A stretch of DNA of 23,093 nt from a virus. The translations under genes and the position numbers were made by a program. The notes beneath the pieces were generated by a model. The model worked only from the letters and a program-made list of their open reading frames with translations, had not been told where the DNA came from and did no database searches. Positions 2,095-14,739 of the stretch are shown here, piece by piece. The stretch spans positions 1-23,093 of IMG/VR virus record IMGVR_UViG_3300022413_000184. One strand, written 5' to 3'. Numbering within the stretch: the first letter of the stretch is position 1; the number at the start of each line of letters is the position of its first letter.

Positions 2095-2340
2095 TCATCC
2101 GCAAAATCCTAATCGTTTCCTTACTAATAATCGCTTTTTCCGAATCACCGCAGGAGAACTCACGGGATACACTACGTCTTCCTCTTCTTCTCCGCCATCT
2201 AATATAATCCCTGCATACAAAAACAGTAATTGTGATCGGTCATCATCATCAACTGACCCATCAACTTCAAACAAGATGGACGCAGGCACACGACCAAAGC
2301 CCATCATCGAATATCGTTTTGCGGCGGTATCAATCGCCAT
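2095..2340 (-). CDS. Small companion protein of the fibre gene (81 aa)
   Basis: Starts by TAATG overlap with the fibre gene. The N-terminus (MAIDTAAKRYSMMGFGRVPA, then DGSVDDDDRSQLLFLYAGI) matches a short protein family I recall right after large fibre genes in many environmental phages. The DGxxDxxDRxxLLxLYxGI part is the recognisable signature. The acidic run (GGEEEEDVV) and basic C-terminus (RKKRLLVRKRLGF) are plain in this copy. Function unknown; perhaps a fibre chaperone or connector. Confidence 0.7.
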   Translation of the reverse strand: MAIDTAAKRYSMMGFGRVPASILFEVDGSVDDDDRSQLLFLYAGIILDGGEEEEDVVYPVSSPAVIRKKRLLVRKRLGFCG

Positions 2341-5225
2341 TACGGCCCATCCGTCATTTCTCCGCGTGTCGCGGTTCCCGCACTGTCCGAAACTGTCGCA
2401 TCATGGTCAACGGTTGCCGCATCATCGTTAAATAGACTATACGTTGTCGCGGTTTGCGTGGCTTTATTCCGCCATGCTTTATATGTATACCCAATCTTAT
2501 CTTTTAGCGAAAGCGTCGCCCCTGGCGCACCTTTTGGCGGTTCGGGATACGTTGTTACCGTCAAGGCGTTATCAACCTCTGCATTAATTTGTGCAACATC
2601 AATCCTCGCGTCATCATTTAAGGTTAAATTTGTAATGCCTGAAGTAGTAAAGTTCCCACGAATAGCCACAGTACCGCCCGTACACGTTCCTTCTACCACT
2701 TGCCCATGTCCTTCAACCGATGCGGTGTCGGTTCCGGTATCGCCCATCGCCTCCAATTGGATTCCACCACTATAATGTCGGATATTCAAATTGGTGTCCC
2801 CAATCGCCGTCCCAAAGTCAAACGTTGGCGTCGAGATTCCTGCAACCCCAGAATGGCAATGGTCAAAAAATATATCCCCCGCTTCCACCATTGTCTGTGT
2901 GCCTTGGATCGAACAAAACAGAACATGAGTCCCCTTAATATGACTACAGACATTAAGGAAACAATGCTCAAAGACTTGCGTGGTGCCGACACCTGATGCA
3001 ATCCCTGAAACCGTCGCCCCAATAAATTTTGACCCTACGATACTCTGTCCCCCGAGCGCCAATGTCCATCCATGGCCCTCAAGCACTTGGTTTGATTGCG
3101 TAGCCGCTAACGTAATCGTTGATCCTGGCAACACAACAAACCGACTAATGCCTAAAGAAGTTGCCAGGGTATTGGCATCCGCAATGGTGTTTACTGGGTT
3201 ACTGTCTGTTCCATTTTCATAATCTTCCGTCCCTGCCGAACCATTCACCGTATCAATGTAAACAGCCCCGCCAGCATAAGTGCCGTTTGTCCGTAATTGT
3301 CGCAGGAATTTGCCTGACGAATTCGCCACATTATGTGCGCCTGACGTAATCGATTCATCCCAAACGGCATCCACGGCACCCGCTGTTAATGCCATGGCAT
3401 CCCCAGCTTTCGATGGCGCATACGATGATTGCGTTGTCGCCAATGTCGCTCCATCGCTCCCGGTAATCGTGTCGAGGTCTGCTTGCGCCGTGGAAATAGG
3501 CGAGTCAAGATTGTTGCCGACAATATTCCCCGCTGTTCCTGCGCCGTATGCTCCAGGGAGTGCAGTGGCCCATGGGTCAGCCGCCCCGCCAGCATCATCA
3601 AGTTTCTTCCCTGCCGATCCTGCCGTTTGATGAGAGGTATCAACATCTTCGTCCCAAATGTTATCCACGGCGGTGGCCGTTATCCCGACATCATTGGTTA
3701 CGCTTGTCACCGTATCGACGGCTCCGCCGGTTGTGTTAATCGACGCTTCCGCCATCCGACTGCTAATTGTCGCATCAAGATTGGTTTTCAGCTTCAAGCC
3801 AATCGTTGAAGCGGTCACGATTGCCGACTCCAAGACATCCCAGACACTTAACGCAAGACTCGTTGAGAATGCCGTCAATGTTCGTGTCGCTGATGCCCAT
3901 ACTTTGTCGGCGCCCGCCTGTGTAATCCCAACATCATTTGTCACATTTGTCGCCGTAGTAATCGTCCCTGCGGTGATATTGGTTGGCGTCGCCAGCCCTG
4001 TTTGAATTTCCGTCACCGCTCCCGCCGATAATCCAGTGTTCGTAATCCAATCCGTTGGCATCGTGGGGAGATTCGTGAGGTTCGTCGCGGTATCGACAGC
4101 TCCGCCGGTAGTACTGATGGAGGCTTCCGCCATCCGACTGCTGACTGTTCCGTCAAGATTATTACCCACGATATTCCCGGCGGTTCCGGCCCCATACGCG
4201 CCAGGCAATGCCGTCGCCCATGGATCGGCAGCCCCGCCAGCATCATCAAGTTTTTTGCCTGCCGTTCCTGCTGTTTGGTGTGAGGCGTCAACATCTTCAT
4301 CCCAAATATTATCGACGGCAGTGGCGGTGATCCCCACATCGTTTGTGACGCTCGTCACGGTATCGACCGCGCCGCCCGTTGTATTGATAGAAGCCTCCGC
4401 CATGCGGCTAGAAACAGTCGCATCAAGATTCGTTTTCAGTTTTATTCCAATAGTTGAGGCCGTAACAATCGCTGACTCCAAAACATCCCAAACCGATAGC
4501 GCCAAACTGGTTGAAAATGCCGTCAAGGTACGCGTGGCAGACGACCACACCTTATCGGCTCCCGCCTGTGTAATCCCAACATCGTTCGTGACATTCGTCG
4601 CGGTTGTGATTGTCCCGGCGGTGATATTAGTTGGCGTTGCTAGCCCTGACTGAATCTCCGATACCGCCCCTGCCGACATACCCGCCGCCGTCACCCAATC
4701 CGTTGGCATTGTTGGAAGATTCGTAAGATTCGTTACCGTAGCAATAGTTGGGATTGCCGATAGCCCTGCACCATTGGCCCCAATTCTTGCGAAACTATCG
4801 CCTGTTTGGGCCGTATGACCTGTCAATGTCGTGACGGTCGGAATCACCGCGCCAGTATGTGTTGCGGCGGCTAATGTCACCGCCCCTGACGCATTAAAGC
4901 CATTGGCTGATGCGCCATATAATGCATCATACGTCGCTTCTTCCATCACTTGAAATTCATGACGTACCGGCAACGCATTGGCACTGGCTGCAACCGTTAG
5001 CACTAATTGCCCAACCGTATTCGTGTCGGTGGCATCTAATTCGCAATTATAATACCCGTCGGCATCATGCGTTGGCGTCGTCACATCATTTTTGGCGGCT
5101 AATGTTTGCCCATTCTTCGATAGCTTAACCGAAGGACTTTCACCAGACTCCGCCGCCGCCCCATCACTAATATCTAAAAAAGGACCAATAAGAACATCGA
5201 CTGCGATTGATTGCTTTAAAATCAT
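2340..5225 (-). CDS. Large fibre/appendage protein with internal duplication and beta-helix
   Basis: A 961-aa protein. Residues 1-100 are a beta domain (SIAVDVLIGPFLD, YYNCELDATDTNTVGQLVL). Residues about 163-575 hold two copies of a 216-residue block (see repeat entries) containing TNLPTMPTDW, ASATRTLTAFSTSLALSVWD and AVDNIWDEDVD. The part from GGAVYIDTVNGSAGTEDYEN onward looks like a right-handed beta-helix (RFVVLPGSTITLAATQ, HVLFCSIQGTQTMVEAG, IRHYSGGIQLEAMGDTG), typical of fibres that contact or cut host glycans. The end (YTYKAWRNKATQTATTY, ATRGEMTDGP) is a small beta tip. No catalytic site is evident. The ribosome binding site is weak (AAGG). Its stop overlaps the next start as TAATG. 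Confidence 0.85.
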   Translation of the reverse strand: MILKQSIAVDVLIGPFLDISDGAAAESGESPSVKLSKNGQTLAAKNDVTTPTHDADGYYNCELDATDTNTVGQLVLTVAASANALPVRHEFQVMEEATYDALYGASANGFNASGAVTLAAATHTGAVIPTVTTLTGHTAQTGDSFARIGANGAGLSAIPTIATVTNLTNLPTMPTDWVTAAGMSAGAVSEIQSGLATPTNITAGTITTATNVTNDVGITQAGADKVWSSATRTLTAFSTSLALSVWDVLESAIVTASTIGIKLKTNLDATVSSRMAEASINTTGGAVDTVTSVTNDVGITATAVDNIWDEDVDASHQTAGTAGKKLDDAGGAADPWATALPGAYGAGTAGNIVGNNLDGTVSSRMAEASISTTGGAVDTATNLTNLPTMPTDWITNTGLSAGAVTEIQTGLATPTNITAGTITTATNVTNDVGITQAGADKVWASATRTLTAFSTSLALSVWDVLESAIVTASTIGLKLKTNLDATISSRMAEASINTTGGAVDTVTSVTNDVGITATAVDNIWDEDVDTSHQTAGSAGKKLDDAGGAADPWATALPGAYGAGTAGNIVGNNLDSPISTAQADLDTITGSDGATLATTQSSYAPSKAGDAMALTAGAVDAVWDESITSGAHNVANSSGKFLRQLRTNGTYAGGAVYIDTVNGSAGTEDYENGTDSNPVNTIADANTLATSLGISRFVVLPGSTITLAATQSNQVLEGHGWTLALGGQSIVGSKFIGATVSGIASGVGTTQVFEHCFLNVCSHIKGTHVLFCSIQGTQTMVEAGDIFFDHCHSGVAGISTPTFDFGTAIGDTNLNIRHYSGGIQLEAMGDTGTDTASVEGHGQVVEGTCTGGTVAIRGNFTTSGITNLTLNDDARIDVAQINAEVDNALTVTTYPEPPKGAPGATLSLKDKIGYTYKAWRNKATQTATTYSLFNDDAATVDHDATVSDSAGTATRGEMTDGP
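3505..4092 (-). repeat. Internal repeat copy 2 (588 bp, lacks last 60 bp)
   Basis: The second copy, beginning at NLTNLPTMPTDWITNTGLSA and ending at NIVGNNLD, after which the sequence moves to non-repeated SPISTAQADLD. Protein identity to copy 1 is very high. Over about 155 residues I count roughly six differences, such as VWSS/VWAS, GIKL/GLKL and ATVSS/ATISS. In a 100-base stretch (3913-4012 against 4561-4660), 15 bases differ, almost all at synonymous positions. Confidence 0.88.
4093..4740 (-). repeat. Internal repeat copy 1 (648 bp) in the 961-aa fibre gene
   Basis: The first copy in coding order of a 216-residue block, beginning near NLTNLPTMPTDWVTAAGMSA and running through NIVGNNLD to a short extra segment (TVSSRMAEASISTTGGAVDT). 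Landmarks shared with the second copy (CGTTGGCA at 4701 and 4053 on the plus strand, TCAAGATT at 4153 and 3505) are exactly 648 bases apart. The frame is kept. A shorter element, SSRMAEASI-x-TTGGAVDT, occurs both inside and at the end of this copy. Confidence 0.9.
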
Positions 5226-5227
5226 TA

Positions 5228-5788
5228 CTACAGCGCCTTATTATGATGTCGTTGGTGATACACAAATAAAGGAACCGCCCCACCCTCTGGGTCGGTAAAC
5301 GGTGTATGCACTTCAGATAAAGCCGTCCCGGTATCCCAGATAGGACCTTTAGCACCTCCATGGGGCGCGTTGTTTGTGATGGTATACCGTAATGCTAATC
5401 GGTCACTTGATACCCACGTCCCTAATGAGGGATTCGTCACATTAAAAGACAATGATCCCGTTGACGCAGAACTTTGGGCACCCTCCGTAGAATTAATTGG
5501 TCCGTTTTGAATCGTCCCGCTACTATTGACGCGATACCAATCAACGGTAATCGTCGTGTTCGCCGTTGAGGTGCTGACTTCAACTTCACACGTAAACGTA
5601 CCAGTGCTTGTCCGCGTCACTCCGGTATCCTCATTTTCCTCATAGAAGCCATCGTTAGTCCCGCCCCCCGATGACGCCGTGGCTGTGTCTGTGGCATCCG
5701 CTGGATCGGTGGCTGCAATTTGATGGGTGAATGCCGTCCCCAAAGAATGCGTCCCATTGGCATTATGAATGAAGTACGTTTTCGCCAT
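5228..5788 (-). CDS. Beta-sandwich appendage protein (186 aa)
   Basis: I chose the ATG at 5788 (MAKTYFIHNANG). The longer reading begins at TTG and adds only four residues. The protein is Thr/Ser/Gly-rich with clear alternating strands (TFTCEVEVSTSTANTTITVD, GSLSFNVTNPSLGTWVSSDR, LALRYTITNNAPHGG), a jelly-roll or Ig-like sandwich. It lies between the small proteins and the 961-aa fibre gene, three bases from the latter. A virion surface or fibre-associated role is inferred. Confidence 0.65.
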   Translation of the reverse strand: MAKTYFIHNANGTHSLGTAFTHQIAATDPADATDTATASSGGGTNDGFYEENEDTGVTRTSTGTFTCEVEVSTSTANTTITVDWYRVNSSGTIQNGPINSTEGAQSSASTGSLSFNVTNPSLGTWVSSDRLALRYTITNNAPHGGAKGPIWDTGTALSEVHTPFTDPEGGAVPLFVYHQRHHNKAL

Positions 5789-6098
5789 CCCACCACCCAA
5801 GTTTTATTTCATTATGCTGTAAATCAGGAAGATAGACACATTGCCGTTCTTCCTGCTTTCCGCTTGGGAACGTGATGATTTCCGTAATCATATTAGGATC
5901 GTACTTTACCCCGGTCTGCCCAGCGACCCAATTCAATTCTTCACGATACAACCAATACAATGACGCCCCATGAAATACGTTACGATAGCGTCCATGAATT
6001 AATGTGATTTCTTGTACACCGTCACTTCGCATGGTTGCCCAATCTTCAGCGTCACCGCTGACTGTTGTGTGATCTTCATAAAGAATCTCAACATTCAT
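5763..6098 (-). CDS. Hypothetical 111-aa protein
   Basis: A compact alpha/beta protein (MNVEILYEDHTTVSGDAEDW, QEITLIHGRYRNVFHGASLY, WLYREELNWVAGQ). It is rich in Trp and Tyr. The N-terminus may be a small beta domain and the C-terminus (EERQCVYLPDLQHNEIKLGW) another strand pair. The start is given by ATGA coupling. It overlaps the next gene by 26 bases. Not recognised; the position suggests an appendage accessory. Confidence 0.65.
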   Translation of the reverse strand: MNVEILYEDHTTVSGDAEDWATMRSDGVQEITLIHGRYRNVFHGASLYWLYREELNWVAGQTGVKYDPNMITEIITFPSGKQEERQCVYLPDLQHNEIKLGWWDGENVLHS

Positions 6099-6283
6099 TG
6101 CCGTTCCTTTTTACGCCGATGCGTTGGCCTATTGGGGCGCTTAAGACTATGTTGCCGAAGAATCGCTGCCATGCCTGTACGGGTTATCGTGGTCGGCTCT
6201 GCGCTGCCAAATCCTAATGTTGGGATAAACCCAACAGAGCCAGGTGAGAACCCAATTCCACGACCAATAAGATGCTTAATCAT
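6095..6283 (-). CDS. Small Gly-rich structural-operon protein (62 aa)
   Basis: The ATG directly follows the preceding stop codon, so translation is coupled. The opening (MIKHLIGRGIGFSPGSVGFI, then PTLGFG) resembles a short protein family I recall from fibre regions of environmental phages. The C-terminus is basic (RPNRPTHRRKKERQ). No function is known to me. The stop overlaps the next gene as ATGA. Confidence 0.65.
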   Translation of the reverse strand: MIKHLIGRGIGFSPGSVGFIPTLGFGSAEPTTITRTGMAAILRQHSLKRPNRPTHRRKKERQ

Positions 6284-7210
6284 TTAGGCATTCCTTGTCC
6301 GTGACGTGGGAGATGTATCGCTATCCAATAAAAAGGTCATGCTTTGCGTTGTTCCGTCAAGTTTTTTGCAAGACATCGTGGTCCCGCTAATCGCAAATTG
6401 TGCCAGCGCAGACCAGAGCATATATTGCATTTGTGCGACGGTTGGTTGTGAGCCGTCTGTGGCATACGATTCCGTTATTTGCCGAGCGAGCAAAGCATCA
6501 GCAATCGCGTTCGCTCCGCCTGTTGATATTGCAGCGGCATCGATACTATCTGTTCCTGTCGATAAGGCGTTCGCATCCAATTGATTCGCAACGGTAAACG
6601 CCATTTGATCTGTCACGGCTTTAATCGCCGTCGTATCAACAAGCGCCAACGCCGCATCTGTTGCCGTCCCATCCGTCACGACATACAAACTACTCAAGGC
6701 GTCCGTCGCTGGCGTAAAGCTTGACCAATCCCCCGCCGCATTGGCTATCTTGGCAACAATAGAATTATCGACCGGATCATCCGCGTCAGCCACCGCAACT
6801 AAATGGTCAAGTTTCTGCGCGACCAAGGCATCATTGCACTCTGATTCAACTTCAGCATCCCACGATGCATTCCATGGAACCGCCGTTAACCCTGCCCCTG
6901 CAACACCTAAATCAACCTCATCACGCAAGTCAAATAAAAAAGCAGTATCCGCTCCATTCGTTGACACCATCTTAATAATCACTTGGTCATGGTTCATCTC
7001 TGCTGCAGATAACGTCACTTCATAAACGCCTGTCGAAGAAATCTCTACCACGGTGTCTACAATGGGCAAAGAAGTCCAGGCTCCAGCCCCATCTTTATAA
7101 TACCCAGTATCCAGCACCGTCTCCCCAGATTTAAAGGATTCGGGAGACGTTGTATCAACCATTGGAAAAGCTAAATAATACGCAGTATTTTTTTTGTGTG
7201 TAATTTGCAT
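6284..7210 (-). CDS. Modular fibre protein with Ig-like N-terminus (308 aa)
   Basis: The start at 7210 follows AAGGGGAC. Residues 1-100 form a beta domain (TAYYLAFPMVDTTSPESF, GVYEVTLSAAEMNHDQVI, FLFDLRDEVDLGVAGAGLTA). It is followed by a helix/strand region with PWNASWDAEVESECNDAL, a recurrent motif in environmental phage fibre genes. The end (MQYMLWSALAQFAISGTTMS, then TFLLDSDTSPTSRTRNA) looks like the trimerising C-terminus of such proteins. Probably part of the host-contact apparatus. A related N-terminal fold appears in the 406- and 206-aa proteins. Confidence 0.72.
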   Translation of the reverse strand: MQITHKKNTAYYLAFPMVDTTSPESFKSGETVLDTGYYKDGAGAWTSLPIVDTVVEISSTGVYEVTLSAAEMNHDQVIIKMVSTNGADTAFLFDLRDEVDLGVAGAGLTAVPWNASWDAEVESECNDALVAQKLDHLVAVADADDPVDNSIVAKIANAAGDWSSFTPATDALSSLYVVTDGTATDAALALVDTTAIKAVTDQMAFTVANQLDANALSTGTDSIDAAAISTGGANAIADALLARQITESYATDGSQPTVAQMQYMLWSALAQFAISGTTMSCKKLDGTTQSMTFLLDSDTSPTSRTRNA

Positions 7211-7513
7211 TTATGCTTGTCCCCTTGAAAGTCCACGCCGAAACCCTCGCGTAAAACCTCTCTCGTAATCCAAGACGGTTATTTCAGGGCTAATAGATGA
7301 AAACACCGCTGGACCAGGAATACCAAACAACCCTAATTTGTTTAAATCTGTAGGCCACTTAGGAATACCTGGATCGGGAGGAACAAGGCCACCCGGCATT
7401 CCAAATAACCCGAGTCCTAAGATTCTTAAATCTGTCGCTGGTTTTTCGACACCAAGGCCACCTGATTGCTTGCTGATGGGAAGACCGAATGGGCCAAGGC
7501 GTGACAGACTCAT
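7211..7513 (-). CDS. Hypothetical Gly/Pro-rich 100-aa protein
   Basis: Starts by ATGA overlap with no clear ribosome binding site, so it is probably translated by coupling. The motif G-L/P-F-G-L/M/I-P occurs three times (GPFGLPIS, GLFGMPGG, GLFGIPGP). The C-terminus is rich in Arg and Gly (RGFTRGFRRGLSRG). It may be an extended, oligomer-associated peptide of the appendage. Not recognised as a named family. The next gene begins immediately after its stop codon. Confidence 0.65.
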   Translation of the reverse strand: MSLSRLGPFGLPISKQSGGLGVEKPATDLRILGLGLFGMPGGLVPPDPGIPKWPTDLNKLGLFGIPGPAVFSSISPEITVLDYERGFTRGFRRGLSRGQA

Positions 7514-8130
7514 AATGTAATAAACGCTTCACCATTTGAAGGAACAGTAGGCATAAGACTCGTCACAAAATGTTTAGTTGACGCTGTATACGAAACGATA
7601 CTCACCATTGTACTTTGTAGATTCCCAGAACCGACCCACAAAACACTTTTCCCTGCATACGCATTATCTAATGATGATAATGTTCCATCAGCGCGAAATT
7701 CTGTTGTCGTGGGTGTAAAGAATGTATTGGTGACAGTGCCGTAATCCATCGATTGTTCTGCTTGCAACCGTGATGGATGAACAACATCATAAAAAAGATC
7801 AGCATCATATACATCCGTTACGACAACACTTACAAACACATGGCCTTGTGACGCCCAAACCGTATCGGGGATATCTAATGTATACAACCCTGGATGTTCG
7901 GTCGCGTCAACTTCAAACCACCTCAAGTCTGTGTGAGAGTCACTTACAGCGGTATGCGCCGCCGTTGGGTCAATAGCGTTAACTGACACCCCACGCCGAA
8001 ACCATGAAGCAGACACGGCGGTATAAGGGACGCCGGTAGCTGCTTGCCCTGCCGTTCCATATGTTGTCCCAACGTTACGCAGCTTAAATACGGCGCGTTC
8101 ATTACTATGATCTAACGGCACAGTAATCAT
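7510..8130 (-). CDS. Short modular fibre protein (206 aa)
   Basis: The start at 8130 follows AGGGGGC. The N-terminal half is an Ig-like domain of the same type as in the 406-aa neighbour (SASWFRRGVS, HPGLYTLDIPDTVWASQGHV, VVVTDVYDADLFYDV). The C-terminal half (AYAGKSVLWVGSG, VSIVSYTASTKHFVTS, VPSNGEAFITL) matches in pattern the end of the 406-aa protein. It lacks the long helical middle, so it reads as a shortened paralogue. Likely a virion appendage component. The stop overlaps the next start as ATGA. Confidence 0.72.
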   Translation of the reverse strand: MITVPLDHSNERAVFKLRNVGTTYGTAGQAATGVPYTAVSASWFRRGVSVNAIDPTAAHTAVSDSHTDLRWFEVDATEHPGLYTLDIPDTVWASQGHVFVSVVVTDVYDADLFYDVVHPSRLQAEQSMDYGTVTNTFFTPTTTEFRADGTLSSLDNAYAGKSVLWVGSGNLQSTMVSIVSYTASTKHFVTSLMPTVPSNGEAFITL

Positions 8131-8139
8131 GGCTGCCCC

Positions 8140-9360
8140 CTATATAATGACAAAAGGATTTCCATTAGCAGGCGCATGCGTAAACCCTTGCACCGTTAAT
8201 GCGTTTGTCCCGCTATCGTAAGCTGTAATTTTTGACCCTTGGCCAAACACAACGCCTGATGCATCCGTCGCATAACATGACCGATCATTATACATATCCG
8301 TAATCGTTCCGCTGAGATCTGTTTGTAAAACCGTCGCTGTTGACCCGGTTTGCGCCAAAAACGGGATGGCCGCCATCGACCCTTTCTTGAGGTTTGTTGC
8401 CGCTACGGTACTTTGGGTAATACTCACAAGATCAGATGGAACATTAATCCCCGATGCCTCAACGTTTACGCTTCCGTTCACAATATTATAAACCGACGTG
8501 GCATCCGGCGAAGTCGTCCAGTTTGGTGTCACTGTCGCCGTATCGGTGGAATTCACATAATCAGAAATCACTCGGCTTTGTCCTGCGCCAGTTCCACTTG
8601 TAATGTTGACGCAGCATCCATTTAATTCATCATCAGCAAACGTTTCCGCTGACGCAAGCTGAATCGTGCTTGATGTCCCAGCTTGAGCCGTTCCCGCTGC
8701 CAAGGCACGTATCGTCGCATCGAGTAACGCATCTAATCTGCCGCCATCCACCCAATCTGTTTGCAATTCACCAGTATCAGCAACAATCGATGCGGTTTCC
8801 GCTTTTATTGCAATGATATCTGCGGCGATATCTGCTCCCGCTGCATTCGTGATAACCGCCGCTTGGATTGCGTCAAGTTCCGCTTGCAACGTTGTCCCTG
8901 TGTCAACAAGAATAGCATCCATATCTAATCCGCCAGCATCACTAATCGGCAACCCTCCAGCGGCATCCGCCGCAGCATTCGGCAGGGCGGTTTGCCCCAT
9001 ACGAACGGCATCGTAAGGATCAAACGAGACAATATTAATTGTCCCGCCCAACACGATCATGCCAGTCGCCGTCCCACCCCACGTTACTTTCTTGACGCCT
9101 GCCGCAACGGCGGCATCCGGTAGGTCCAACCGATACACGCCATCATCAATATGTAAAATCCCTTTATCCGTATGGGCGGTTGTTAACAACGCTAAGTTTG
9201 TAATTGTCGCAAGAGAAGTCAAGACAGCGGCGTCACGTCGATACCACAACACTAACCCAGCGGTGGCGGCGACCACGCCTTCTTCTGGCGTTCCATCTGT
9301 ACTATCAATAACTTTAAACTCTACTGAAATATTTGTATCTCCGCCTTCAACAAGTAACAT
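8140..9360 (-). CDS. Fibre/baseplate-type modular protein (406 aa)
   Basis: The start MLLVEGGDTNISVEFKVID has AAAGGG seven bases upstream. Residues 1-115 look like the Ig-like N-terminal domain seen in BppU-type baseplate and fibre proteins (GVVAATAGLVLWYRRDA, GVYRLDLPDAAVAAGVKKV). They are followed by DPYDAVRMGQTALPNAAADA, a motif common in environmental phage fibre genes. A helical middle (LQAELDAIQAAVI) leads to a small beta domain (LNGCCVNITSGTGAGQSRVI, NWTTSPDATSVYNI). The C-terminus (TYDSGTN-type turn, APANGNPFVII) resembles that of the next protein. Likely a trimeric appendage with attachment N-terminal and host-facing C-terminal; this is inference. Confidence 0.75.
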   Translation of the reverse strand: MLLVEGGDTNISVEFKVIDSTDGTPEEGVVAATAGLVLWYRRDAAVLTSLATITNLALLTTAHTDKGILHIDDGVYRLDLPDAAVAAGVKKVTWGGTATGMIVLGGTINIVSFDPYDAVRMGQTALPNAAADAAGGLPISDAGGLDMDAILVDTGTTLQAELDAIQAAVITNAAGADIAADIIAIKAETASIVADTGELQTDWVDGGRLDALLDATIRALAAGTAQAGTSSTIQLASAETFADDELNGCCVNITSGTGAGQSRVISDYVNSTDTATVTPNWTTSPDATSVYNIVNGSVNVEASGINVPSDLVSITQSTVAATNLKKGSMAAIPFLAQTGSTATVLQTDLSGTITDMYNDRSCYATDASGVVFGQGSKITAYDSGTNALTVQGFTHAPANGNPFVII

Positions 9361-9766
9361 AGTGGCACCCTTTCCTTATGTGATACGAAATCCCGAATGG
9401 GCTAAACGGATCATGCAATAAAATCGGTGGCGGTGGGATCAACGGTTCCATAACGAAAGGCACCTCAGTTGATTCCACTGATTCATTACCTGATTGGTCA
9501 TACGCCGTAATCTTAGCGTAATACTGTCCCGATGTGATTGGACCAATAAGATGTGTTGTTGAGGGAGCTACCTCTGTCGCTGAGGGCGTCCCTGGAATCG
9601 TTTGCCCACCAGACGTTGCACTATAATATAGCCGATACCCCGCTAAATCAGGTTCAACGTTCGCATCCCATGTCAATGTCGATGTTGATGTTAGATTCGG
9701 CCCAGCGGCCCATGCAGAAGAAGCCATAAGCCCAATAATCACAAGGCATCGAAGGAACCATTTCAT
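9347..9766 (-). CDS. Sec-exported fibronectin type III protein (139 aa)
   Basis: The ATG at 9766 overlaps the previous stop as ATGA and opens a clear signal peptide (MKWFLRCLVIIGLMASSAWA, cleavage after residue 20 or 21). Residues 25-105 form one FN3 domain: STSTLTWDANVEPDLAGYRL (the Trp and Tyr of the B and C strands), then ITSGQYYAKITAYDQSGNES (F/G strands). The domain is followed by a proline spacer (LIPPPPILL) and a short tail with two cysteines. A small secreted FN3 protein is unusual in a phage structural operon. It ends inside the next gene with a 14-base overlap. Confidence 0.78.
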   Translation of the reverse strand: MKWFLRCLVIIGLMASSAWAAGPNLTSTSTLTWDANVEPDLAGYRLYYSATSGGQTIPGTPSATEVAPSTTHLIGPITSGQYYAKITAYDQSGNESVESTEVPFVMEPLIPPPPILLHDPFSPFGISYHIRKGCHYVTC

Positions 9767-10491
9767 TGTTGGCTCACCCAATAATGTCGTTGCGTCACAA
9801 TCGAAGCAACCGAAGATCCTCCCGCTGCTTCTGTTGTGCAAATTAAATCATCAAAATTCCAACTTGAGTGGGCGATATCCCCACTATCGATCAATGACCC
9901 TGCTCCGACCCCAAAATAGCCTGCTGCTGTGATAGAAGAATCTGTTGTACTTAAATTCGTAACTTCAACATCATTATGATACACCTTCAATGCCGTTCCG
10001 ACAGCTTCAAGCGTAAATGTATCATTAACGGAGATATTAAAATTGTCAGTTGATATATCGCTTGGCGTCCCTGACACCATTTTGACAATCTTACAGCTAT
10101 CTGTAGGAGTCGCACCAGTACGATACCGCGCCATCCCATACCAATTATTAGCATCAGCCACACGTAAGAGCAAAAAAAACGGGGTATTTACCGAACCACT
10201 CTCAACAGCTGTGACTTTTATTTTAATACTACAATCCGCAGAATCCGCAATAGGGTCCAGACGCCGCGCCCACCCTGTTCCTACGCCGCTATTATCATGC
10301 GTTTTATCAGATGTCAGTATCCGAAGAAAATTCGACGACCAAACCCAAGGGAACTGTTCTGTCCCTGATGTCACTTGTTGGATAAGATTACTCCACGCTC
10401 CTGATCCATGCGCATTCGCTCCAGCGGGAGTATGCGCCTCTAAATATGCGCTTGTCCCAATCGTAAAATCATCACCATTGAAAACCGCCAT
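9763..10491 (-). CDS. Concanavalin/LamG-like jelly-roll protein (242 aa)
   Basis: The start MAVFNGDDFTIG follows AGGAG by seven bases. The sequence has the repeating strand pattern of a LamG-like lectin sandwich. It opens with DDFTIGTSAYLEAHTP and GAWSNL, continues with CSIKIKVTAVESG, FFLLLRVADANNWYGMARYR and DTFTLEAVGTALKVYHNDVE, and closes with AAGYFGVGAGSLIDSGDIA and WNFDDLIC. Such domains in phage fibres often bind sugars. It has no signal peptide, unlike both flanking genes, so it is probably a virion or fibre component. It overlaps the FN3 gene as ATGA. The fold is fairly sure, the ligand unknown. Confidence 0.72.
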   Translation of the reverse strand: MAVFNGDDFTIGTSAYLEAHTPAGANAHGSGAWSNLIQQVTSGTEQFPWVWSSNFLRILTSDKTHDNSGVGTGWARRLDPIADSADCSIKIKVTAVESGSVNTPFFLLLRVADANNWYGMARYRTGATPTDSCKIVKMVSGTPSDISTDNFNISVNDTFTLEAVGTALKVYHNDVEVTNLSTTDSSITAAGYFGVGAGSLIDSGDIAHSSWNFDDLICTTEAAGGSSVASIVTQRHYWVSQQ

Positions 10492-10501
10492 CTGTAGACT
10501 C

Positions 10502-12742
10502 CTATGGGTTCGCCGTTAACCCTGTAACTGTGGCTGGAGGCGTTGTATCCAATGAATTGTTCCCTATCCCGTATCGATACAAAAATACATCACCTGGGCG
10601 ACCTTTAGGCCCAAAGACCATTAACGCATTTAAGTGAGGATCAAACACCGAATGTCGCCCACTAACCGTTTGGCCACCTGGCTGATTAGGGGTATATTCC
10701 TCCCAAGCTTGCGTTGAAGGATGATATGCATACAGCTTGATAATGTTGTTCGTATCCCCTACTGGAGTCGCAGGTTCTTCATCCCACAGCGGCCATAGAA
10801 GAACTTGGTTGATGGGGTCCCAGTGAGCATGACTTTCAAGCCGACGATAGGGGGCAGAAGATGCTGGGAGAGAGCCAAGATTCGTAAACGTCTCTGCTGC
10901 AATATTGTACCGCCACAACTTCCCATTAGCTTGATCCATCCAATTATCAATAATATAAATCACTCTGGCGTTAGGGTCATAGGCTGTATAATTTGTATTC
11001 CCAAACAATTGTCCATTTGGAGGTTTTATCCGCGTCCATGTATCCGTCGTAATATCATAGACATTCATTTGCTCGGTATTTGATACACCCATATACGCGT
11101 CCAACTCCACGTCATACCAAATAAACGCGAAATCCCCAAGTAACGATCCGACAATAGTTGCATTTTGACGTGCTTCATCTAGCCATGTTCCCGCCACAGG
11201 GTCATAGGACAAGACCTCACTGCGGTCAATATCTCCACCGATGCAAAAATTGGGGTCTAGCCCATGGTTCCAATTAAACCCCGGATTATGCCAAAGGACC
11301 TTTCGCTTAGAATCCCACGCCAGGCCAATCTCATCCGGTCCCATCGGCTGCACGCCTAAATCCGCACGACAATAATCTTGAATCTTCGCCCAGGTATCAG
11401 TAAAGATGTCATAGGTAAACATCTCTTGCCTGCCCGATTGCGGGGCAGAATAAAGGAGTCCACCCTGGTCACCGCCTAACGTATAGATTTTCCCATCATC
11501 AGGATTATGTGTAAGCCGTATATGTTTGCACCCTGTAATACAGGGCGCGGTTCCTTGCGGCCCAGGCGGATCACGGTTAATCCATGTTCCGCTCGCAATA
11601 TCTACCCATTCAGGTTTCCAGACAAAAAGATTTTGCTGAAAATCATTTTGGATAATAAACTCACGCAAGGTGGGATTATAGCGCCATCTTCCAAACGTAC
11701 CGCCAGCGCCATTCGGCCAAGATGGCCCACCCGTTGTCGTTTCGTATATCCATGCTCCGGTAGAAAGATTCAACGACCACACTCGATCCCCAAAGTTATC
11801 AATGTCAGATCCACCCCAAGCAACAATACGTTCCGTCCGTGGGTCCCACGCCAACCCAATACTACGTGGAGCAATGGCCGTAGGCCCAGTCCCATAGGTT
11901 GCGCCTGTGGTTGCCAAGACATGCATAGCATAGCTATCACTGCCATCCATCTTAAAGTATGCTACCCCGCTAGTTCCAATGCTCACCGCCCACCGCTTAC
12001 TACTGTCACCTGGATCTGGGACCAGCACAATTGAGGAGGTCTGTGTGGTGTAGCTATCAACTGCAAAGGGCGTCATGCGCGTCCAAACTTGGGTTGTTCT
12101 ATTGTACTGCCAAATCTTTTTATCAAGGTTGCCTCCGAACCACGCATATATATGCCCATCCACGTCATTATAAACAAGCTGAAAAATCCCTCCATTCCCT
12201 GGCAAAAATGGATCACCCGTTGAAGGCAACAAGACCCATGTATTTGTCGCAAATTGAAAGACCCACACTTCCACCCCAAACCCACCACTCCCACACGCTA
12301 GCGAGCCAGAATACACAAACATCTCATCCGTATTAGGTAAATACTCCAAGAGTTGATATGTATGGCGGCTATTCGCTGTCCCATCAGCCAACTCATCCTC
12401 ACATGCTTCACCTGGGCCGGGAGCCACTTGGCTTGGCTGCGTCAGTAATGTCCAAGCATTTGTCGCACGATCTAAGGCATAGATTTCATTGCCATTATAA
12501 TCGCCATGGCCTCCACCCCAAATCACATACCGATCACGCTTTGTATCGAAGATCCCGCCACCCCAGGCCGTGGGCACCCATCGACAATCATTGTGCTGGT
12601 TAGCGAATGAAGGATTCCCGCCAACACCGGGACACAACCCATCGTTGTAAGGCGCTGTGTTAAGAATTTCTACCCACTTACCGGCACCCCACGCTGGAGC
12701 CACGCTAAACAATATAACCAATAAACAAATCCGCCATATCAT
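10502..12742 (-). CDS. Sec-exported Kelch/beta-propeller protein
   Basis: A 746-aa protein. The ATG at 12742 (MIWRICLLVILFSVAPAWGA) gives an ATGA overlap and a clean signal peptide, with cleavage expected after residue 20. The body has about eleven Kelch-like blades, each ending in the pattern Y/W-x-D/N-x-x-T-x-x-W (for example YALDRATNAWTLL, WQYNRTTQVWTRM, YDITTDTWTRIKP). GG motifs such as YVIWGGGHGD occur between strands. The number suggests two propellers, about residues 35-400 and 400-730. It stops right after DTTPPATVTGLTANP, a typical linker into a fibronectin type III domain that is missing. Kelch propellers bind glycans or proteins. The galactose oxidase copper site cannot be confirmed by eye. 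Confidence 0.85.
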   Translation of the reverse strand: MIWRICLLVILFSVAPAWGAGKWVEILNTAPYNDGLCPGVGGNPSFANQHNDCRWVPTAWGGGIFDTKRDRYVIWGGGHGDYNGNEIYALDRATNAWTLLTQPSQVAPGPGEACEDELADGTANSRHTYQLLEYLPNTDEMFVYSGSLACGSGGFGVEVWVFQFATNTWVLLPSTGDPFLPGNGGIFQLVYNDVDGHIYAWFGGNLDKKIWQYNRTTQVWTRMTPFAVDSYTTQTSSIVLVPDPGDSSKRWAVSIGTSGVAYFKMDGSDSYAMHVLATTGATYGTGPTAIAPRSIGLAWDPRTERIVAWGGSDIDNFGDRVWSLNLSTGAWIYETTTGGPSWPNGAGGTFGRWRYNPTLREFIIQNDFQQNLFVWKPEWVDIASGTWINRDPPGPQGTAPCITGCKHIRLTHNPDDGKIYTLGGDQGGLLYSAPQSGRQEMFTYDIFTDTWAKIQDYCRADLGVQPMGPDEIGLAWDSKRKVLWHNPGFNWNHGLDPNFCIGGDIDRSEVLSYDPVAGTWLDEARQNATIVGSLLGDFAFIWYDVELDAYMGVSNTEQMNVYDITTDTWTRIKPPNGQLFGNTNYTAYDPNARVIYIIDNWMDQANGKLWRYNIAAETFTNLGSLPASSAPYRRLESHAHWDPINQVLLWPLWDEEPATPVGDTNNIIKLYAYHPSTQAWEEYTPNQPGGQTVSGRHSVFDPHLNALMVFGPKGRPGDVFLYRYGIGNNSLDTTPPATVTGLTANP

Positions 12743-13263
12743 TTTTCCGCATGCTCCATATCTTTCGGCCAATTCTCTTTCGCTTGCGTCGACATTGCAT
12801 GATGTCCAGCAATTTGCGCCGTCGTGTCATACCCGAATGGGCGTTCAGGACGAAACTTTTCATAACTTGTCAAGTCAGGATCATCAGAACTTGGCTCAAG
12901 ACGTTTCACGATCTCTCTCCATTCTAAAATCTTTGACTTGTTCGCGGCTTCCCACTTCATGTGTTTATGCACAGTCCCATCACCGCCACGGTTGCGGCGC
13001 ATCTCTTCCTTCGACGGAATCCCTTCCGTAAATTCTTCACGCAATTGTCGCTCACGTTTCATCGCCGTGTTCTTTTCTGTCGCGCTCTCAAACGGTTGTG
13101 GCGCTTGCGTATCCAAGGTGTCTTTCATCTGCTTCACTTGCTTCCGCAAGGCACTCTTATCTTGGATGTACGAAGACATATTCGGATTCGTCAACAACTC
13201 ATTCGACGCCGCTAAGTCTTGCTCAATCGCTGTTCGCTGTGATGGTTTTAATGTGCGCTTCAT
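12739..13263 (-). CDS. Helical structural-operon protein (174 aa), function unknown
   Basis: A charged, almost all-helical protein (MKRTLKPSQRTAIEQDLAAS, ALRKQVKQMKDTLDTQAP, ATEKNTAMKRERQLREEF). A conserved-looking middle (GIPSKEEMRRN, DGTVHKHMKWEAANKSKILEW, REIVKRLEPSSDDPD) matches my memory of an uncharacterised family found near capsid genes in environmental phages. It may be a virion or head-maturation protein, but this is positional. The ribosome binding site is modest (AAAGGG). The stop overlaps the Kelch gene start as ATGA. Confidence 0.7.
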   Translation of the reverse strand: MKRTLKPSQRTAIEQDLAASNELLTNPNMSSYIQDKSALRKQVKQMKDTLDTQAPQPFESATEKNTAMKRERQLREEFTEGIPSKEEMRRNRGGDGTVHKHMKWEAANKSKILEWREIVKRLEPSSDDPDLTSYEKFRPERPFGYDTTAQIAGHHAMSTQAKENWPKDMEHAEK

Positions 13264-13824: not shown

Positions 13825-14739
13825 TTAGACATCGTTTCCGAGAATCCACCGCCAGTCAATCCACGCATAAGAGAAGCGTGTATAGACTCTCCACTTCCGC
13901 ACGAAAGTATCGAAATCAGAAGTGTTAGCAAATTCCACAGGAATCCGATTAAACCACATAAGATTATCTTGACGTGATTCGCCGTCCATCATGAACCAAT
14001 CAGTGGCACTGGACATATAGTTCCATTCATAAATGGTGTACTGTCCGTAATGCACATTGGCATTGTTATCGGCGGTGTTCACTTTACCCAATGAACTCAC
14101 AATCTCGTATGAGGTTTCATAGAGATTTGGGGGAATCCAAATCTCGGTCGGCTCCACATTAATCCGTTCGCCACGATCCCCACGGAAGTTCCGCATCTGG
14201 ATACGATTAGCGGCGACCGATGTGGCACTTAACGCGGCGGTTGATAAGTTATCAAATCCCACCGCTGTCGATGCCCCACTGGTTGTGGTATGCGAGTTAC
14301 TACACAACGGCACACCTTCAGAATGGTTGTAAAACAAATTATCTATCGAGAAGGCCATCGTTAAGGCACGTGCGCCATGTGTCTCCAACGTCCGTTGCGC
14401 CGAACGCGCTAACTTCGCTGGTTGACGATCCATTTGATTGAACAGATCATCATCAATCAACGTTCGTCCAATCTGCATTCCCAAGGCGTACTCTTTATGA
14501 GTCGCCGTGACATCATACCCTTGTGATGTTGAATCATACGCGACGTTCCCATCAAACGCTTGCAAGTCGCCCAGCTCGCCAAGCTGGCTGAACCGTTCAT
14601 CGGCGCCTTTACGTGCCGTCTGCACGTTAAACAAGAGACTCCGCATATCCGGCAACCGTTTATACGTCGAATCGAAAATCTCTGAAAACCGTCGATCCAG
14701 CAGATCGGTATAGTCAGATGATATTTGTGGTACTGCCAT
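13825..14739 (-). CDS. Major capsid protein (HK97-fold type)
   Basis: The 304-aa coat protein. The start at 14739 follows AAAGGAG by nine bases. The sequence follows the pattern of major head proteins. It has an N-terminal arm (DYTDLLDRRFSEIFDSTY), then a beta-hairpin or E-loop-like region (about 60-90, ending EYALGMQIGRTLIDDD), then a long helix (PAKLARSAQRTLETHGARAL). A P-domain/A-domain region follows with RGERINVEPTEIWIPPNLYE (about 190-208), and TADNNANVHYGQYTIYEWNYM and ATDWFMMDG near the end. No prohead protease is seen, and the N-terminus shows no long propeptide. It lies directly upstream of a stable hairpin. Confidence 0.88.
   Translation of the reverse strand: MAVPQISSDYTDLLDRRFSEIFDSTYKRLPDMRSLLFNVQTARKGADERFSQLGELGDLQAFDGNVAYDSTSQGYDVTATHKEYALGMQIGRTLIDDDLFNQMDRQPAKLARSAQRTLETHGARALTMAFSIDNLFYNHSEGVPLCSNSHTTTSGASTAVGFDNLSTAALSATSVAANRIQMRNFRGDRGERINVEPTEIWIPPNLYETSYEIVSSLGKVNTADNNANVHYGQYTIYEWNYMSSATDWFMMDGESRQDNLMWFNRIPVEFANTSDFDTFVRKWRVYTRFSYAWIDWRWILGNDV

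Follow-up and report, generated by a model that had tools for sequence, protein, structure and literature searches.

The Kelch protein P0001 and the small FN3 protein P0003, encoded between the head and fibre genes of a tailed phage, very probably leave the cytoplasm of the infected cell, and this export is the best-supported step of the present analysis. They would be late phage proteins that use the host Sec pathway. The chances are about even that they form one exported set, in which a binder and an FN3 adaptor act at the host surface or in the lysate.

The window, meaning the whole stretch of DNA that was analysed, is a complete IMG/VR record of 23,093 bases. It is a tailed-phage fragment with its coding on the minus strand, where the gene order is terminase, portal, capsid, P0004, the trio of Kelch, P0002 and FN3 genes, and then BppU-like fibre genes. 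The relevant features are as follows.

14739-13825, minus strand: capsid gene, upstream of the trio.
12739..13263, minus strand: P0004, conserved gene directly upstream of the Kelch gene; its orthologues follow the capsid gene in many relatives.
10502..12742, minus strand: P0001, Kelch protein of 746 aa with a Sec-type signal; Pfam Kelch models above cut-off; divergent sister P0006.
12686..12742, minus strand: P0001 residues 1-19, a predicted Sec signal; homology to the sister and the bacterial relatives begins just after it.
12356..12517, minus strand: Kelch residues 76-129 with the invariant GGGHxD..N and RH (H79, D81, N85, R126, H127), identical in 12/12 sequences.
10505..10549, minus strand: the end of P0001, DTTPPATVTGLTANP followed by the stop, an orphan FN3 strand A; no FN3 in any frame before P0003.
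9763..10491, minus strand: P0002, 242 aa, without signal, jelly-roll/LamG-like by eye only; no family match.
9347..9766, minus strand: P0003, FN3 protein of 139 aa with a Sec-type signal; AlphaFold pLDDT 81 and Foldseek FN3 matches.
9707..9766, minus strand: predicted Sec signal of P0003, residues 1-20; supported by the signal scan and the family alignment.
9449..9682, minus strand: the part of P0003 (residues 29-106) that forms FN3 strands B to G and lacks strand A; based on the alignment and on a model that shows six strands with high confidence.
9350..9448, minus strand: proline-rich C-terminal tail of P0003; low model confidence (pLDDT <50 for residues 124-139).
8140..9360, minus strand: P0005, BppU-like fibre gene without signal; it overlaps the FN3 gene end by 14 bases.

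The trio was originally predicted as three consecutive genes with chained starts between head and fibre modules, and all of this was borne out. The three minus-strand ORFs lie at the predicted positions, with the capsid gene upstream and the BppU-like fibre genes downstream. The P0004 stop overlaps the Kelch start by 4 bases (ATGA), and the P0002 stop overlaps the FN3 start in the same way; the Kelch stop is separated from the P0002 ATG, which is preceded by GGAG, by a gap of 10 bases. Some other features of the fibre region were also observed. Within the 961-aa fibre-type gene at 2340-5225 of the window, a 300-nt stretch is duplicated with a spacing of 648 nt (81% identity), and a 90-nt unit is present in three copies. 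Several phages (L007 ~13900-14675, L022 9261-10001, L057 9241-10032) have similar genes near the capsid/fibre region that share a GDDH motif and look like glycosyltransferases by eye.

The trio is not a conserved cassette in related phages. The closest relative is a sister phage represented by two contigs (L023/L024), whose terminase and capsid are 95% and 96% identical to those of the window phage. It has a Kelch gene without the P0002/FN3 pair, although the sister contig is a fragment, so that the part of the genome outside it may carry an FN3 gene. More distant relatives have terminases 44-51% identical, and one of them (L007) carries a look-alike P0002/FN3 pair elsewhere in its genome and no Kelch gene. 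When the fibre genes of the window (2340-10500) were compared with those of L023 (13368-20771), the order differed and the divergence was strong, while the head genes were 82-96% identical. By tblastn against INPHARED isolated phages, P0001, P0006, P0002, P0003 and two P0003 relatives had no match, so that no known isolated-phage family was found.

The Sec-type signals proposed for the two outer proteins, including their AWG/AWA-type cleavage region, passed a strict heuristic scan (n-region, hydrophobic core and AxA-like site, for ORFs of at least 140 aa). The N-terminus of P0001 is MIWRICLLVILFSVAPAWG, with cleavage placed before AGKW, and that of P0003 is MKWFLRCLVIIGLMASSAWA, with cleavage placed before AGPN; both have K/R in the n-region and a hydrophobic core. 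These were the only two ORFs of this length in the window that passed, and 26/524 ORFs passed over all loci. Alternative TTG starts are present upstream, but the starts given here are the likelier ones in view of the ATGA overlaps with the preceding genes. The sister Kelch P0006 starts with MTYFFAFLIYALLSGSLVFA followed by G at the cleavage site; its n-region has no positive charge, and the homology to P0001 begins directly after the hydrophobic segment. Because P0006 keeps a signal at 28% identity, the signal survives strong divergence. Together with the secreted bacterial relatives of the Kelch protein and the recurrence of exported FN3 proteins in unrelated phages, this supports the predicted export well.

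The accompanying premise, that an export signal excludes a virion role, was weakened. Tail-fibre-like proteins with Sec-type signals are encoded in related loci (L052 3604-4908, L056 2819-4906 and L053 6334-8583), and the L053 protein resembles the BppU-like fibre genes, which are signal-less in the window. In L035 (relative L003), a different 154-aa ORF with a signal (4473-4937) overlaps the end of the P0004 homologue, which is the slot of the Kelch gene in the window; the slot after P0004 is thus repeatedly occupied by signal-bearing proteins. The Kelch and FN3 proteins could be virion appendages, that is, tail-fibre parts that are exported and attach to virions later, in the periplasm or once the cell has lysed, or that are retained with an uncleaved hydrophobic N-terminus. 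Their genes lie within the fibre module, P0003 has weak matches to PHROG tail families, and one Kelch protein of phage CBB is present in the virion (PMC5259590); the signal-bearing fibre-like proteins point in the same direction. However, the cleavage sites in both signals are ordinary, many P0003 relatives adjoin lysis genes instead, and virion proteins of tailed phages are normally assembled in the cytoplasm. We regard virion appendages as unlikely.

The Kelch identity of P0001 was confirmed by repeats above the Pfam cut-offs (PF24681, 62.6 bits, and PF24981, 59.2 bits, both with a cut-off of 50), and the Kelch models PF13415, PF13964 and PF01344 also matched. The AlphaFold model, built from two sequences, has a pLDDT of 36 and is too poor for a fold search or for placing the Cys-Tyr cross-link and copper ligands of a galactose oxidase (AA5). 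P0001 had no match at E 0.01 among PDB sequences and none among plasmids, and when viral and genome contigs were searched with the Kelch sequence, only the sister phage and one planctomycete matched. In the sister, P0006 follows P0004 and a beta-helix-like gene, in the same region as the window Kelch. The two Kelch proteins are 28% identical, in contrast to 96% for the capsids of the same phages, so that the Kelch gene must experience diversifying pressure or exchange. Relatives of the GGGHxDYxGNE..SRHTY family were present in 8/294 sampled Planctomycetota genomes (L087-L095); they are ~30-38% identical to P0001 over residues ~20-400 and have a signal or lipobox. Residues G76-H79, D81, N85, R126 and H127 are invariant in all 12 phage and planctomycete Kelch sequences, an indication that the P0001 propeller retains a site for a ligand or metal.

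From the folds and this conserved site, we infer a binding role for the exported set. An exported binder may also serve superinfection exclusion or receptor masking, in which the proteins would attach to a surface receptor and thereby keep out further phages or prevent progeny from binding again. Export combined with binding folds is consistent with this, and the divergence of the Kelch proteins between the sisters is expected for a specific binder. In contrast, no receptor, membrane anchor or lipobox was seen, the position in a late operon is odd, and no PADLOC match was found, the result on which a defence system reading was rejected. Exclusion or masking is improbable.

P0003 was assigned to the FN3 fold by structure rather than by Pfam, whereas its relatives match PF00041. 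The AlphaFold model from 19 sequences (pLDDT 81) and Foldseek, which gave a probability of 1.00 to many FN3 structures, agree on this identity. The model contains six strands (B, C, C', E, F and G) instead of the complete seven-strand A-G set, and the predicted signal ends just before strand B; strand A is therefore missing in P0003. In a canonical FN3 domain (L061), ~24 residues precede the strand-B Trp, including PPAVPTGL as strand A. A search with an alignment of P0003 and its L007/L008 relative gave 45 viral loci, and a second search gave 66, partly overlapping. In the first set, 17 of 38 distinct loci have a short ORF in which only 4-18 residues separate the signal end from the strand-B Trp, so that small exported proteins of this kind are a recurrent feature of many unrelated IMG/VR contigs. 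A-less FN3 proteins without signal (L063, L100) also begin at strand B. Many of the exported FN3 proteins have a PPxxPxG-like strand at their own C-terminus; the C-terminal tail of P0003 is degenerate.

The exported FN3 genes recur in two kinds of surroundings: next to endolysin or holin genes, and in fibre modules that encode other exported proteins (L051-L053, L055-L057). In 6 of 22 exported-FN3 loci, an endolysin (amidase_2, M15 or GH19-like) is encoded within three genes, and holin-like genes are also nearby. The P0003 relative of L007/L008 (E ~5e-7) has a signal and an ATGA overlap with the gene before it, which encodes 240 aa and resembles P0002; the two lie near holin-like genes upstream of terminase. 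The exported FN3 protein could thus be a lysis accessory that aids envelope disruption, in which case the window copy would have been relocated to the fibre module. This is highly improbable, as the window pair and several others are not near lysis genes and no lysis role is known for a Kelch propeller.

The missing strand has a counterpart at the end of the Kelch protein. The Kelch protein ends in an FN3 linker and a strand A, without the rest of an FN3 domain behind them, and a programmed frameshift that fuses the tail to a downstream FN3 was rejected, since no FN3 is present in any frame between the tail and P0003. Five other large signal-bearing proteins have such an orphan strand-A end: L051 (DITPPAAPTGITIS..), L057 (DTTPPLAPTGVSV..), the beta-helix protein of L063 (DVTPPSIPTGVRVD, then the stop), L102 (DLTPPAPPTGISI..) and L109 (DTTPPAAPQNPYI..). 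The tail-bearing proteins have different folds, Kelch in the window and beta-helix, LamG-like and others elsewhere. All six adjoin A-less FN3 genes, a co-occurrence that is partly built in by collecting the loci through FN3 homology, with the window Kelch found independently. The signal test was passed by 10/15 tail-bearing ORFs versus 142/1,216 others (Fisher p ~1e-6), a comparison in which FN3 ORFs, two motif matches due to chance and two signals missed by the rule (L051, L100) are counted. P0006 has no strand-A tail, and no FN3 gene is present in its contig. L057 and L063 have an exported neighbour in common, while their large proteins differ and the tail is kept in both. This neighbour is a 142-aa protein, 75% identical between the two, encoded between the FN3 gene and the large protein (L057 5407-5835, L063 5316-5744); by eye it resembles a degenerate FN3 domain.

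The orphan strand A of the Kelch protein may complete the A-less FN3 fold as a donor-strand joint. On sequence grounds strand donation is an attractive but tentative explanation, less likely than not, and it would account for three facts together: the A-less FN3 domains, the orphan tails, and the tail kept despite a differing large protein. Its main rival, which concerns this step alone, is that the tails are relics of module swapping by recombination in conserved FN3 linkers and represent a useless first strand. The tail matches ordinary FN3 linkers, such as DTTPPAVPTGLAATPGDAQVALSW of L061, and the fibre modules of the window and L023 are visibly shuffled, and relics explain two of the three facts. 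Six large proteins of several folds end just after the same strand, the tail is retained in L057/L063, and signal-less FN3 proteins begin at strand B as well, all of which speaks against relics; we place their likelihood somewhat short of even. If strand donation is real, it may extend to a modular exported adhesion system, in which interchangeable binders (Kelch, beta-helix, LamG-like) dock by the strand-A tail into exported or cytoplasmic A-less FN3 adaptors. This would be a natural tag-and-catcher, possibly a phage-made surface fibre built by Sec export and donor-strand complementation, and we consider it speculative and quite unlikely.

In the exported set that we propose, the Kelch protein would be the binding domain, the small FN3 protein the adaptor and P0002 a co-expressed partner, and the set would be an adhesive or ligand-binding device. 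P0002 was originally predicted to be a signal-less, lectin-like jelly-roll protein. The absence of a signal stands and counts against the exported set, as it fits poorly with a set spread over two compartments. The fold was not confirmed: P0002 had no Pfam, PHROG, NCBIfam or PDB match, and its jelly-roll label is a guess. Homology to the look-alike gene of L007/L051 was dropped, as the hhalign probability of 4.4 is not significant.

The usual view is that tailed-phage fibre proteins are assembled in the cytoplasm and work from the virion. If a Sec-exported set recurs in the fibre modules of uncultivated phages, such proteins would have a role outside the infected cell as well, either at lysis or earlier. 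The FN3 strand that is missing in one protein and orphaned in the other provides a concrete binding test with recombinant proteins, which needs no cultured phage. In the open literature we found no account of signal-bearing phage fibre proteins, of FN3 proteins near lysis genes or of phage donor strands, which is weak evidence of novelty.

Several known systems resemble parts of this set. Giant phages encode Kelch propellers, as the window does (CBB_550/552/554, with CBB_552 present in the virion); the available part of their description mentions no signal and describes no FN3 partner (PMC5259590). In donor-strand pili (chaperone-usher, type V and archaeal threads), Sec-exported Ig-like subunits receive the missing strand from a neighbour (PMC9715654). 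P0003 is likewise an Ig-like domain without one strand and with predicted Sec export, whereas no usher, chaperone or anchor was found at the window set and strand donation is deduced here from sequence. The FN3/Ig-like domains of tailed-phage virion proteins share the FN3 fold with P0003, in line with its weak PHROG tail-family matches, but they are parts of large proteins assembled in the cytoplasm and include strand A, while P0003 is a single exported domain starting at strand B. The secreted planctomycete Kelch proteins are like P0001 in the signal or lipobox, in the conserved H79/D81/N85/R126/H127 and in the sequence over residues ~20-400. Compared with them, the phage protein has ~350 further Kelch-like residues, an FN3 strand-A tail and the setting of a phage operon.
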